From: Marinitoga aeolica
Lineage (GTDB): Bacteria; Thermotogota; Thermotogae; Petrotogales; Petrotogaceae
DNA length: 64,000 nucleotides
NCBI RefSeq assembly: GCF_029910535.1
Contig: NZ_CP069362.1
Location: 1,426,001 to 1,490,000, forward strand
Direction: 5' to 3'
Below are positions 33,608-36,812 of this stretch, one piece after another. Position 1 is the stretch's first letter, and each line of letters begins with the position of its first letter. The position numbers and the translations under genes were made by a program. Below the pieces are notes generated by a model, which saw nothing but the letters and a program-made list of their open reading frames with translations, did not search any database and was not told where the DNA came from.

Positions 33608-33636
33608 TTGACAAATAGAAAAAAAGATGATATAGT
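33608..33636 (+). promoter_or_regulatory. Strong sigma-A promoter of the metal-resistance operon
   Basis: Perfect -35 TTGACA (33608-33613), 17-bp spacer, -10 TATAGT (33631-33636). Transcription should start near 33643. Confidence 0.8.
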
Positions 33637-33640
33637 TTAT

Positions 33641-33660
33641 ATATGTATAAGTGTTCATAT
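33641..33660 (+). promoter_or_regulatory. Probable ArsR/SmtB-family operator
   Basis: An imperfect inverted repeat ATATGTA ... TTCATAT (33641-33647 and 33654-33660; 6 of 7 pairs) at the transcription start and just before the RBS of the sensor gene. The position and AT-rich form fit autorepression by the zinc sensor encoded next. Confidence 0.55.
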
Positions 33661-33675
33661 ATAGGAGGTGTTTAT

Positions 33676-34005
33676 ATGGAAGATTGTAATGAGAAAGAGT
33701 TTATTAATAAATTACCAGAAAGGGAATTGATTCTAAACGCTGTTGAAATGTATAAAATATTTGCTGATGAAACAAGATTGAGGATATTGTTAGCTTTATT
33801 AGAAAATGAACTTTGTGTATCGAAGATAGTATCTATTGCGGGTATTTCTCAATCAGCGGTTTCTCATCAACTTCGTATTTTAAAACAAATGAATATTGTA
33901 AAATATCGCAAACAAGGGAAAAATGTATTTTATTCTTTAAAAGATGAACATATAGAAAAAATTATAAATATGGTTTTTGAACATTTAAATGAGAAAGGAG
34001 AATGA
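33676..34005 (+). CDS. ArsR/SmtB-family metal-sensing repressor (CzrA-like, probably zinc)
   Basis: 109 residues with a winged helix-turn-helix (VSKIVSIAGISQSAVSHQLRILKQMNIV; wing RKQGKNVFYSL). The last helix carries D90-x-H92-x10-H103-x2-E106, the spacing of the alpha-5 zinc site of CzrA/SmtB, with Glu in place of the last His. So zinc (or cobalt) is the likely inducer. A lone Cys (ELCVS) is present, but not the CadC/ArsR Cys pair. The ATG at 33676 has AGGAGG 7 nt upstream; the earlier ATG at 33643 lies at the expected transcription start and is not credible. The CDF exporter follows with an overlap region. Confidence 0.85.
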   Translation: MEDCNEKEFINKLPERELILNAVEMYKIFADETRLRILLALLENELCVSKIVSIAGISQSAVSHQLRILKQMNIVKYRKQGKNVFYSLKDEHIEKIINMVFEHLNEKGE

Positions 34006-34007
34006 AT

Positions 34008-34916
34008 ATGTCAAATCATAGTCATCATGAACATCATCACCATCATCATGGGAATGATTTAACAGATAAAAAGTTATTATTTTCTGTGGTATTTAATTTT
34101 ATTATAACTTTATCAGAAATATTAGGTGGTATATTTTCGCATAGTTTAGCTTTAATTTCTGATTCACTACATAATTTAAATGATACTATGGCAATACTTC
34201 TAAGTTATGTTGCAAGAAAGATATCAAAAAGACCAAAGGATGAAAAAAGAACATATGGATATAAAAGAGTGGAAATTTTAGCAGCGTTTACAAATACTCT
34301 TTTTTTATTTGCTGTAGCAATATTTTTAATAGTAGAAAGTATAAAAAAATTTTATAAACCTGAAATAATAGATGGAAGATTAATGCTTATTATTTCGATA
34401 ATAGGATTGGCTGGAAATCTGATAACAGCGATATTGTTATTTAAGGAATCAAAGGAAAATTTAAATGTAAAAGCAACATTTGTACATATTGCAAGCGATA
34501 CATTATCTTCGGTAATGATTATAATTGGAGCTATTTTTATTTATAAATATAATTGGTATATTCTGGATCCGATTTTTACTATGTTGATAAGTGCTTACAT
34601 ACTTTTTGAGGGATATCATATATTAAAGGAAAGTACAAATATTTTAATTCAAGGTACTCCTGATAGTATGGAATTAAATAAAATAAAAGAAGAACTTGAA
34701 AAGTTGAATTATGTTGAAGATGTTCATCATATACACGTATGGACAACAGATGGTCAGGATAAATATCTTGAATGTCATATTTCTTTAAAAGAGAATGAGA
34801 ATTATAATTTAGATGGATATTTAAAAGAAATAAATCATATTTTGAATGAAAAGTTTGGAATAATTCATAAGACAATTCAATTTGAGAAAAAGTTGTGTAA
34901 GGAGGGAGAAAAGTGA
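34008..34916 (+). CDS. Cation diffusion facilitator, zinc exporter (ZitB/CzcD-like)
   Basis: 302 residues with six membrane segments. A His-rich cytoplasmic N-terminus (HHEHHHHHHG) can bind metal. The transport site is of the zinc H-x3-D type: SLHNLND near residue 58 in helix 2 and HIASD near 162 in helix 5. The C-terminal cytoplasmic domain has VEDVHHIHVWTTDG, typical of the family. It exports Zn2+ by proton antiport. I prefer the ATG at 34008 (AAGGAG 7 nt upstream) over the ATG at 34002, which overlaps the sensor stop. Directly controlled with the ArsR sensor. Confidence 0.88.
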   Translation: MSNHSHHEHHHHHHGNDLTDKKLLFSVVFNFIITLSEILGGIFSHSLALISDSLHNLNDTMAILLSYVARKISKRPKDEKRTYGYKRVEILAAFTNTLFLFAVAIFLIVESIKKFYKPEIIDGRLMLIISIIGLAGNLITAILLFKESKENLNVKATFVHIASDTLSSVMIIIGAIFIYKYNWYILDPIFTMLISAYILFEGYHILKESTNILIQGTPDSMELNKIKEELEKLNYVEDVHHIHVWTTDGQDKYLECHISLKENENYNLDGYLKEINHILNEKFGIIHKTIQFEKKLCKEGEK

Positions 34917-35554
34917 GAAGAGAATTATGGGATTGGAAATATCAAAAATTAGGGGAGAAAGTTGTTGAAAGTTTGAAAAGAAAAAAACATGAAGCATATT
35001 TAGTTGAAAAAAAAGAAGATGTAATTCCATTGTTAAAAAAAATAATGAAAGAAAATTCAACAGTAGCAGTTGGTGGAAGTTTGACATTATCAGAATGTGG
35101 AGTTTTAGATTTTTTAAGAAAGGAGAATTTTAATTTTTTAGATAGATATAATGTAAAGTCAAAAGAAGAGTTGGAAGAAATTTATTATAATATGTTTAGA
35201 GCAGATTATTTTTTATGCAGTGCAAATGCTATTACTGAGGATGGGAAGATTGTTCAATTGGATGGAAATGGTTCAAGAGTAGCTCCCATGATTTTTGGAC
35301 CAAAAAATGTAATAATAGTAGCGGGAATGAACAAAGTTGTACCGGATTTAGAAAGTGCAAATAAAAGAATAGAATATATTTCGCCGATGAATTCAAAACG
35401 TCTAAATTTTGATACACCATGCACATATACAGGTAAATGTGATGATTGTTTATCGCCAGAAAGAATATGTATTCATAGAGTTATAGTAGAAAGTGGGGTA
35501 AGACATCCAGGGAGATTTAAAATCATTTTAGTAAAAGAGGATTTGGGATTATGA
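34913..35554 (+). CDS. LUD-domain protein (LutC/DUF162 family)
   Basis: 213 residues of the LUD fold: VAVGGSLTLSECGVLDFL (near 53-70), ADYFLCSANAITEDGKIVQLDGNGSRVAPMIFGP (near 102-135) and VIIVAGMNKVV. A Cys cluster C-x5-C-x2-C-x5-C (CTYTGKCDDCLSPERIC) near the C-terminus could hold a metal or FeS site. LutC takes part in lactate oxidation with LutA/LutB, but those are absent here. It is translationally coupled (GTGA overlap) inside a metal-exporter operon, so a role in metal or redox stress is possible. Function not known. Confidence 0.75.
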   Translation: MRRELWDWKYQKLGEKVVESLKRKKHEAYLVEKKEDVIPLLKKIMKENSTVAVGGSLTLSECGVLDFLRKENFNFLDRYNVKSKEELEEIYYNMFRADYFLCSANAITEDGKIVQLDGNGSRVAPMIFGPKNVIIVAGMNKVVPDLESANKRIEYISPMNSKRLNFDTPCTYTGKCDDCLSPERICIHRVIVESGVRHPGRFKIILVKEDLGL

Positions 35555-36042
35555 GTAATTTGATTTTTGGATTTGGATTATTGATATTTGTAATAATACT
35601 TTATGTTTATTTATTTAAAAGCAAAGGAAAAAAGGAATTTAAGAAAGCTGTGAAAAAAGGAAATAAAAACCTTATTCAAAATTCTATTAGAATATTTTCA
35701 ATATTTTTAATTATAGGAATTTTACAAAATTTTCTCTCTCCAAAACAAGTTGGTGATTTTTTATTGAATTTTTCTGGGGTGAAAGGTATAATAACAGGAT
35801 TATTTACTGGAGCAATAATGATGGGGCCTCCAGCTTCAGGATATCCTATTGCTCAATATCTATTTGAAAATAATGCGAGTGTATCTCTTGTTTCATCGTT
35901 TTTGCTTTCCTGGGTTATGCTTGGAATAATTTTTATAACCTATGAATTGCAAAATTTTGGAAAGAAATTTACTATTGTGCGAAATCTCTATTCAATAATA
36001 TCAATAATAATTATCGCATATTTAATGGAGTTGATATTATGA
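35551..36042 (+). CDS. Half-size permease, ArsP/DUF318-like (first half)
   Basis: 163 residues, four or five hydrophobic segments. The motif MMGPPASGYP near residue 90 is the hallmark of ArsP_1-type permeases, which are normally single proteins of 300 or more residues with two such repeats. Here the halves are separate genes overlapping by 4 bp (ATGA). The substrate is unknown; known members move organoarsenicals or are linked to metal and thioredoxin genes. Overlaps the LUD gene by 4 bp as well. Confidence 0.7.
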   Translation: MSNLIFGFGLLIFVIILYVYLFKSKGKKEFKKAVKKGNKNLIQNSIRIFSIFLIIGILQNFLSPKQVGDFLLNFSGVKGIITGLFTGAIMMGPPASGYPIAQYLFENNASVSLVSSFLLSWVMLGIIFITYELQNFGKKFTIVRNLYSIISIIIIAYLMELIL

Positions 36043-36539
36043 AAAATTTTATAAAAAATTATAAAGTAGAAATAATCATTTTTTTAATAGCAATAATACT
36101 AATATTTTTCAATCCAGATAAAGCAATACTTGGAATAAAATATGCAGTAAAAACATTTTTATATCTTTTGCCTATTATTGTAAGTGTAGCTTATTTAACA
36201 GGTTTTATTTCTGAAATAATACCAAAACAAACAATAAAAAAATTTGTAGGAAAAGAAAGTGGATTTAAAGGAAAATTATTAGGTGGTATTTTTGGTACTT
36301 TAATGATAGGACCAGCATATGCTTTTTACCCTTTTTTCGCAGAATTAATAAATAATGGTGCGAATATTGGGGTGATTGCAGTAACAATTGCTGCCTGGTC
36401 CATTAAAATTCAATGGTTACCATTTGCATTATCAATATTGGATATAAAATTTGTTTTGTTGTTGAATCTATTTATAATAATTTATGCATTTTCAAGTGGA
36501 TATATTATGGAGTTGTTTTTTAAAAGTAAAAAATTATAA
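36039..36539 (+). CDS. Half-size permease, ArsP/DUF318-like (second half)
   Basis: 166 residues, about five hydrophobic segments. The motif LMIGPAYAFYP near residue 88 mirrors the GPPASGYP motif of the preceding half, as expected for the second inverted repeat of an ArsP_1 permease. It ends the ArsR-controlled operon. Probably forms a heterodimer with the preceding protein. Confidence 0.7.
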   Translation: MKNFIKNYKVEIIIFLIAIILIFFNPDKAILGIKYAVKTFLYLLPIIVSVAYLTGFISEIIPKQTIKKFVGKESGFKGKLLGGIFGTLMIGPAYAFYPFFAELINNGANIGVIAVTIAAWSIKIQWLPFALSILDIKFVLLLNLFIIIYAFSSGYIMELFFKSKKL

Positions 36540-36551
36540 AAAACTAAAAGC

Positions 36552-36782
36552 AGACTGTTGACAAAATAAAATATGAAAAAATAATGTGAAAGAATCCTTG
36601 AAAATTCCCGAAAAAATGTGAATGGAGCCTGACAATTTTGCATGGATGCAAAATTGAGCGAAACCGAACATGGATGTGAGTTTGAGCGCCAGGCAAGAAC
36701 GAACATTTTTGAGGAATAAGAATTTTCACTGGATGAATGAATATTATTTTGAATATTTTATTTTGTACTTTGTATACAAACT
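36552..36782. repeat. MITE-like structured repeat, copy 2 (231 bp)
   Basis: Same family as 20475-20757, in inverted orientation. Ends AGACTGTTGACAAA and, on the complement, AGTTTGTATACAAA; shared inner blocks GAAAATTC and the CCTCAAAAATG/CATTTTTGAGG segment. A 10-bp direct repeat AAACTAAAAG lies at 36541-36550 and 36778-36787 and may be a target-site duplication, although its second copy partly overlaps the element end. The core holds two 28-bp units beginning CATGGATG (36641 and 36669), each with TTGAGCG, and a hairpin ATTTTGCAT / ATGCAAAAT. No coding potential. Confidence 0.65.
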
Positions 36783-36812
36783 AAAAGTGATGATATTTTT
36801 ATCATCACTTTT
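36783..36812. terminator. Terminator after the metal-resistance operon and repeat
   Basis: A 12-bp perfect stem AAAAGTGATGAT / ATCATCACTTTT (36783-36794 and 36801-36812), followed by TTATTTTTAATT. No other terminator precedes it after the permease genes, so the repeat element is probably transcribed with the operon. Confidence 0.8.

Follow-up and report, generated by a model that had tools for sequence, protein, structure and literature searches.

Background

Does the run of five same-strand genes in a 64,000-nucleotide stretch of the genome of Marinitoga aeolica, a marine heat-loving bacterium (contig NZ_CP069362.1, positions 1,426,001 to 1,490,000; hereafter the window) encode one export system, or a zinc-efflux unit that carries other modules on its transcript? 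In order, the genes encode an ArsR/SmtB-family repressor (ArsR), a cation exporter of the CDF family, a protein consisting of a single LUD domain, and two half-size permeases (P1 and P2); the host genome (G000 below, its relatives being G001 to G007) is a single contig of 2.44 Mb. The original prediction proposed a new metal or metabolite export module. That LUD and the permease belong to such a module together with the exporter is not supported, as the three pieces of the operon (ArsR-CDF, LUD and P1-P2) assort independently in relatives. We hypothesize, and hold to be probable though well short of certain, that a conventional metal-derepressed zinc-efflux unit heads, in some Marinitoga, a transcript with two functionally separate modules, and that P1 and P2 form an antiparallel heterodimer.

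Results and discussion

The pieces of the operon assort independently

The order ArsR-CDF-LUD-P1-P2 is found in G000, G003 and G006, and in G001 with a decayed permease pair, in differing neighbourhoods. In G005, LUD-P1-P2 occupies the window's chromosomal spot without ArsR-CDF and without the operator described below, and in G004 LUD stands alone at that spot; G002 has the P1-P2 pair elsewhere and no LUD in its genome, and in G007 LUD and P1-P2 are both present, far apart. In G001 the ArsR, CDF and LUD genes are open while P1 and P2 have decayed, and P2 is interrupted in G003, an assembly that is suspect because several of its other genes are broken too. The search for LUD with paired half-permeases in other genomes, which had been suggested as a check, did recover the combination, in Marinitoga alone: although LUD is matched in 64 and P1 in 36 of the 103 genomes of the class (the latter at E 1e-6), LUD touches P1 in only five, namely G000, G003, G005, G006 and, with the decayed P1, G001 (adjacency by coordinates; many-contig drafts could hide more). 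Among 27 CDF loci from 26 genomes including the host's own (viewed with about 1.5 kb on each side, contig ends cutting some), ArsR is the direct neighbour in 12 (once divergently) and LUD in four.

A zinc-type sensor, its putative operator and a CDF exporter

The five-gene operon is real. All five open reading frames (ORFs) are present in the window, and each of the four junctions is a 4-bp overlap (ATGA, GTGA, ATGA and ATGA); the overlaps predicted for the three downstream genes thus hold for the whole operon. The compared frames are under purifying selection and so are not chance ORFs, with a ratio of nonsynonymous to synonymous change (dN/dS) of 0.03-0.24 in every pair, values that are rough because synonymous positions have nearly saturated (pS 0.42-0.70). 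From this layout, the five genes are presumably co-transcribed.

A TTGACA and a TATA-like box occur, as judged by eye, at the matching place in the three relatives with the operon; across the region as a whole, promoter-like sites are not in excess (27 found against 33.4 expected). The operator foreseen by the original prediction was located as a putative 12-2-12 imperfect inverted repeat, TATATATGTATA-AG-TGTTCATATATA, conserved in four genomes. A degenerate version of the pattern, allowing two mismatches, does no better than chance within the window (two matches, on both strands of one site, against 2.31 expected), and we therefore rely on a search of seven whole genomes with the full pattern, which occurs with no mismatch in G000, G001 and G006 and with two in G003; the reversed pattern, used as a control, has no match in these seven genomes. 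The exact operator is kept in G001 and G006 despite differing gene neighbours. Related sequences with one to three mismatches lie upstream of CadC-type ArsR genes in G001, G003, G004 and G005; the CadC-type gene is adjoined by a P-type ATPase in two of these genomes, G001 and G005 (both names come from reading the sequences, with no family search).

The repressor carries the Pfam domain HTH_5 (E 4.1e-18), and its best match among solved structures is SmtB (1r1t, 3.5e-21), with the D, H, H and E of the alpha-5 metal site aligned. The corresponding motif, DxHx10Hx2E at residues 90-106 (DEHIEKIINMVFEHLNE), places it among the SmtB-type regulators. In CzrA the last alpha-5 ligand is His. The alpha-5 zinc site of the original prediction thus stands, and its assignment to the CzrA type does not, as the last ligand here is Glu and the best solved match is SmtB. 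One cysteine lies close to the N-terminus and another in the alpha-3 region; as G001 and G006 lack the former, an alpha-3N metal site is unlikely. An alternative ArsR start at an ATG within the operator was replaced by the most likely one, at 33676 behind AGGAGG. Signatures of the DxHx10Hx2E type are used for alpha-5 regulators, and 12-2-12 repeats are described as their operators (AzuR paper, PMC8790569).

The second gene encodes a CDF protein by both of its domains, Cation_efflux (3.5e-48, 164.4 bits against a cut-off of 26.6) and ZT_dimer (41.5 bits against 26.7), and by the family model TIGR01297 (271.3 bits against 82.35). With 227.6 bits the match to the ZitB equivalog model falls short of that model's cut-off (408); zinc is the predicted substrate.

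Taken together, the SmtB alpha-5 motif, the SmtB match and the conserved operator make control of the CDF exporter by a zinc-type sensor well supported, with zinc as the probable effector, much as the original prediction had it for this part of the locus. The unit resembles those of SmtB/ZiaR/CzrA-type regulators in its alpha-5 motif, its 12-2-12 repeat at the promoter and its adjoining exporter; it differs from them in that the apparent Marinitoga operon has two further modules downstream.

A LUD protein with four invariant cysteines

The third protein matches PF02589 (LUD_dom, 2.3e-52, 177.9 bits against a cut-off of 22.6) over nearly its full length, as is common to LutC and LUD-domain proteins. 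Its cysteines C170, C176, C179 and C186 are invariant in all 20 aligned sequences, taken from the 64 genomes with a match and with G001 excluded (a 21-sequence version gives the same four), and the way they are spaced is suggestive of an Fe-S site or a zinc site. These cysteines are equally conserved where no metal gene adjoins LUD. The neighbours of LUD vary, those searched including PanD and acylphosphatase, and one neighbour gene carries the domains of the regulator Rex.

The Cys cluster of the original prediction was therefore confirmed in every sequence aligned, while a LutC role in a LutABC system was rejected: G000 contains one PF02589 match and hence no second, LutB-type LUD protein (LutA was not searched for), which sets this protein apart from the LutABC system, as does the invariant Cx5Cx2Cx6C near its C-terminus from LutC. 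Searches of solved structures with the protein and with the LUD alignment gave no credible relative, and did not recover even the solved LutC, 2G40.

Two half-size permeases of opposite charge pattern

P1 aligns with the N-terminal part of the ArsP_1 model (PF03773; TCDB 2.A.119), at profile positions 18-134 (1.1e-6, 28.5 bits), and P2 with its C-terminal part, at positions 170-293 (3.3e-6, 26.9 bits), both below the Pfam cut-off of 32.3; nine half-proteins from relatives were also scanned, of which seven pass the cut-off and the two of G007 fail. As predicted, the halves mirror each other, a GP-x4-YP motif occurring in both. They differ from ArsP permeases in forming two chains, from two ORFs with a 4-bp overlap, and in lacking C(S/T)C, a motif within a transmembrane segment that marks the arsenic type of ArsP, since neither has a cysteine (nor a histidine); C(S/T)C is reported in all ArsP homologues of an ars-operon survey (PMC4435449). 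Arsenic export in the manner of ArsP is accordingly not supported, and the absence of both residues makes thiophilic metals or As(III) a less likely substrate of P1-P2. Elsewhere, at locus L001 (G000:C1:836415-837401), the host genome also encodes a full-length ArsP with a CSC, which falls in the GP-x4-YP motif of P1 in a weak alignment (E 0.022).

The two halves differ in the placement of their positive charges. The mean number of lysines plus arginines in 22 P1 against 21 P2 sequences is 0.50 and 3.38 at the N-terminus, 7.00 and 2.00 in loop 1, 1.91 and 4.38 in loop 2, 3.55 and 0.48 in loop 4, and 0 and 2.52 at the C-terminus, and the opposite pattern is also seen in the Marinitoga type alone (six P1 and five P2 sequences). 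This bias suggests that P1 and P2 are oppositely oriented and pair as an antiparallel heterodimer, and the GP-x4-YP part, placed as a re-entrant loop, would fit the same pattern.

The split permease is a widespread class

In every one of the 36 class genomes where P1 is matched, coordinates place a second half beside it, that of G001 being decayed. Most of these matches are 24-38% identical to P1, and close copies (at least 60%) are confined to G000, G002, G003, G005, G006 and G007, with the decayed copy of G001. Of 21 pairs with called ORFs, drawn from 40 loci after setting aside L058 (decayed), L091 (P1 uncalled), L096 (no match), the LUD-only loci and the window's own pair, 17 have the exact 4-bp overlap between P1 and P2, a count that depends on taking the first start codon of each ORF as its start. 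All three pairs found in plasmid records (the archaeon Thermococcus and the Bacillota Acetoanaerobium and Niallia) have it as well.

A family search covered the gene neighbours of 14 of these 21 pairs. A PadR gene adjoins three pairs (L080, L081 and L030), a NifX-like PF02579 protein three (L080, L081 and L082) and a CRP-type protein six (L085, as the end of a longer ORF, L087, L088, L089, L094 and L095); a beta-eliminating lyase, an ABC ATPase and an integrase were also found. The original prediction had named unrelated neighbours elsewhere as a point against its module, and the PadR, CRP-type and NifX-like genes are of that kind, the heavy-metal ATPase beside one archaeal pair being on the other side. 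L080, L081 and L082 have a PadR and the NifX-like gene followed by P1-P2, with a 4Fe-4S protein also in L082; the regulator of L082, and the similar gene orders in L083 and L084, were judged by gene lengths and sequence alone. In L085 and L088, which have the adjoining CRP-type regulators, a longer P2 has at its end a PF04060 Fe-S domain similar to the one in RnfB.

The split permease is thus a widespread class for which no characterised member was found. Among the matches listed from the open-licence literature there was no description of two-chain ArsP pairs, which is weak evidence of absence, and we know of no substrate for the class. That ArsP is usually one chain agrees with the reported average length of 344 residues (PMC7176098), although split pairs turn out to be common; the same source describes an internal repeat of four transmembrane segments in the family, and members with a single such unit, which further weakens the literature negative.

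Weighing the explanations

Under the hypothesis of a zinc-efflux unit heading two separate modules, an ArsR dimer would sit at low zinc on the 12-2-12 operator just past the -10 box and block transcription; zinc bound at the alpha-5 sites would release it, and the CDF pump would export the metal. LUD and P1-P2, being downstream with 4-bp overlaps, would be co-produced with ArsR-CDF, and P1 and P2, as homologous halves inserted in opposite orientations, would form one heterodimeric transporter in which the GP-x4-YP segments face each other.

Several observations weigh against this hypothesis. Three-mismatch operator matches also occur at unrelated sites, two of them in G000, where one falls within an ORF of 427 aa (the same 26 bases recur in G001 and G006) and the other between two other ORFs. 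The block is intact in G006, and in G001 through LUD with a remnant of the pair, though the neighbours differ; P1 and P2 are themselves under purifying selection; and the archaeal pair, on the Thermococcus plasmid, is preceded by a heavy-metal P-type ATPase and a helix-turn-helix gene. Single-chain permeases are distantly similar to P1: the SO_0444 family has a reported role in Cu/Zn efflux (PMC3219624), and the window's P1 shows a weak likeness to it (NF033936, E 0.0051) and to SaoE (NF040736, E 0.0018), far below the family cut-offs of 300 and 325 bits; the P1 of L084 matches SO_0444, and that of L088 matches SaoE, each at E 1.5e-8. As for the heterodimer, the loops used in the charge counts were a visual choice and are of unequal length in P1 and P2, and fold predictions are poor for topology (mean predicted local distance difference test (pLDDT) score 62 for P2 alone and 55 for P1, from two sequences, the P1 model, with a helix break at residues 91-93, being too poor to count). 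Searches of solved structures with P2 and with the full-length ArsP paralog gave no credible relative.

An alternative reading makes LUD and P1-P2 a module for a metabolite, such as a carboxylate or a sulfur compound, which metals would co-induce as zinc poisoning blocks an enzyme and leaves its substrate to be handled. The LUD family is linked to lactate metabolism in Lut operons (PMC3924224), G005 has LUD-P1-P2 without ArsR-CDF, and some pairs elsewhere lie near Fe-S, NifX-like and CRP-type genes; against these stand the restriction of LUD-pair adjacency to the five Marinitoga genomes, the pair without LUD in G002 and the lack of a LutB-type partner in G000, and we consider such a module unlikely.

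A somewhat slimmer chance is given to an integrated metal-export module, in which CDF would export zinc, the LUD cysteines would handle a cytosolic metal or metal-ligand complex and P1-P2 would export a second metal species. The recurrence of the five-gene order in different neighbourhoods, the invariant cysteines, the archaeal ATPase and the SO_0444 family, with its Cu/Zn role and a member induced by Cd and Cu in Nitratiruptor (PMC10092412), would all fit; the parts nevertheless assort independently, the pair has decayed in G001 beside its open partners, the window's P1 and P2 are devoid of Cys and His, and the LUD cysteines are just as conserved in LUD genes with no adjoining metal gene. A more speculative extension, which we regard as doubtful, would make split ArsP-like pairs old and widespread antiparallel heterodimers with GP-x4-YP re-entrant loops entering from opposite faces, the Marinitoga pair and the four-Cys LUD together forming a zinc-induced exporter of a second metal species or of a zinc-stress metabolite.

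Finally, that P1 and P2 are a single-chain ArsP broken by mutation or sequencing error, as their matches to two halves of one Pfam model and the damaged pairs of G003 and G001 could suggest, is extremely improbable and was rejected, given the same split across many genera, reaching to an archaeon and to Bacillota (frequently with the 4-bp overlap), the purifying selection on both halves and the suspect assembly of G003.

Features of the locus and a repeat downstream

Coordinates of the features at the operon, numbered from the first position of the window
Feature	Position	Strand	Basis
Sigma-70-like promoter, TTGACA-17-TATAGT	33608..33636	+	11/12 consensus positions
12-2-12 imperfect inverted repeat, putative ArsR/SmtB operator	33638..33663	+	10/12 arm positions pair
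ArsR/SmtB-family repressor, 109 aa, DxHx10Hx2E at residues 90-106	33676..34005	+	Pfam, SmtB 1r1t match
CDF cation exporter	34002..34916	+	Pfam and TIGR01297
Single-domain LUD protein, C170-x5-C176-x2-C179-x6-C186	34913..35554	+	Pfam, alignment
Half-permease P1, N-terminal half of ArsP_1, GP-x4-YP	35551..36042	+	Pfam, motif
Half-permease P2, C-terminal half of ArsP_1, GP-x4-YP	36039..36539	+	Pfam, motif
Intrinsic-terminator-like hairpin, 3' of operon	36783..36812	+	Similar hairpin after P2 remnant in G001

The gap between P2 and the terminator is occupied by a copy (36551-36777) of a dispersed repeat, some 230 bp long, with 55 matches, many of them partial, among those listed in the genome; G001 has no repeat at the corresponding place. 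The copy matches the Rfam TwoAYGGAY RNA (RF01731) at 36585-36732, with 44.2 bits against a cut-off of 43. A search of 21 genomes found RF01731 in five, each of them a Marinitoga; G000 has 24 matches, of which 11 exceed the cut-off, and G001 and G006 have none; the RNA is listed from human gut, gamma-Proteobacteria and Clostridiales (Weinberg et al., PMC2864571). The ends of the repeat are imperfect inverted repeats (CAGACTGTTGACAAA and TTTGTCTACAAACTG), and a direct repeat of 9-24 nt flanks 12 of 13 copies viewed; in about ten of these, as judged by eye, the direct repeat is a terminator-like hairpin or a piece of one. The dispersed repeat has the look of a small mobile element whose target sites are transcription terminators.

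Conclusions

The locus consists of known parts in a lineage-specific arrangement: its zinc part is routine, the arrangement alone is unusual, and overall it reads as a standard zinc-efflux operon with two passengers. Of wider interest is the split permease: its homologous halves are spread over many Thermotogota and also occur in an archaeon and in Bacillota, and the regulators beside them are of at least three types. Because the halves can be tagged separately, the pair offers a simple natural test of whether the two repeats of the ArsP fold are antiparallel.

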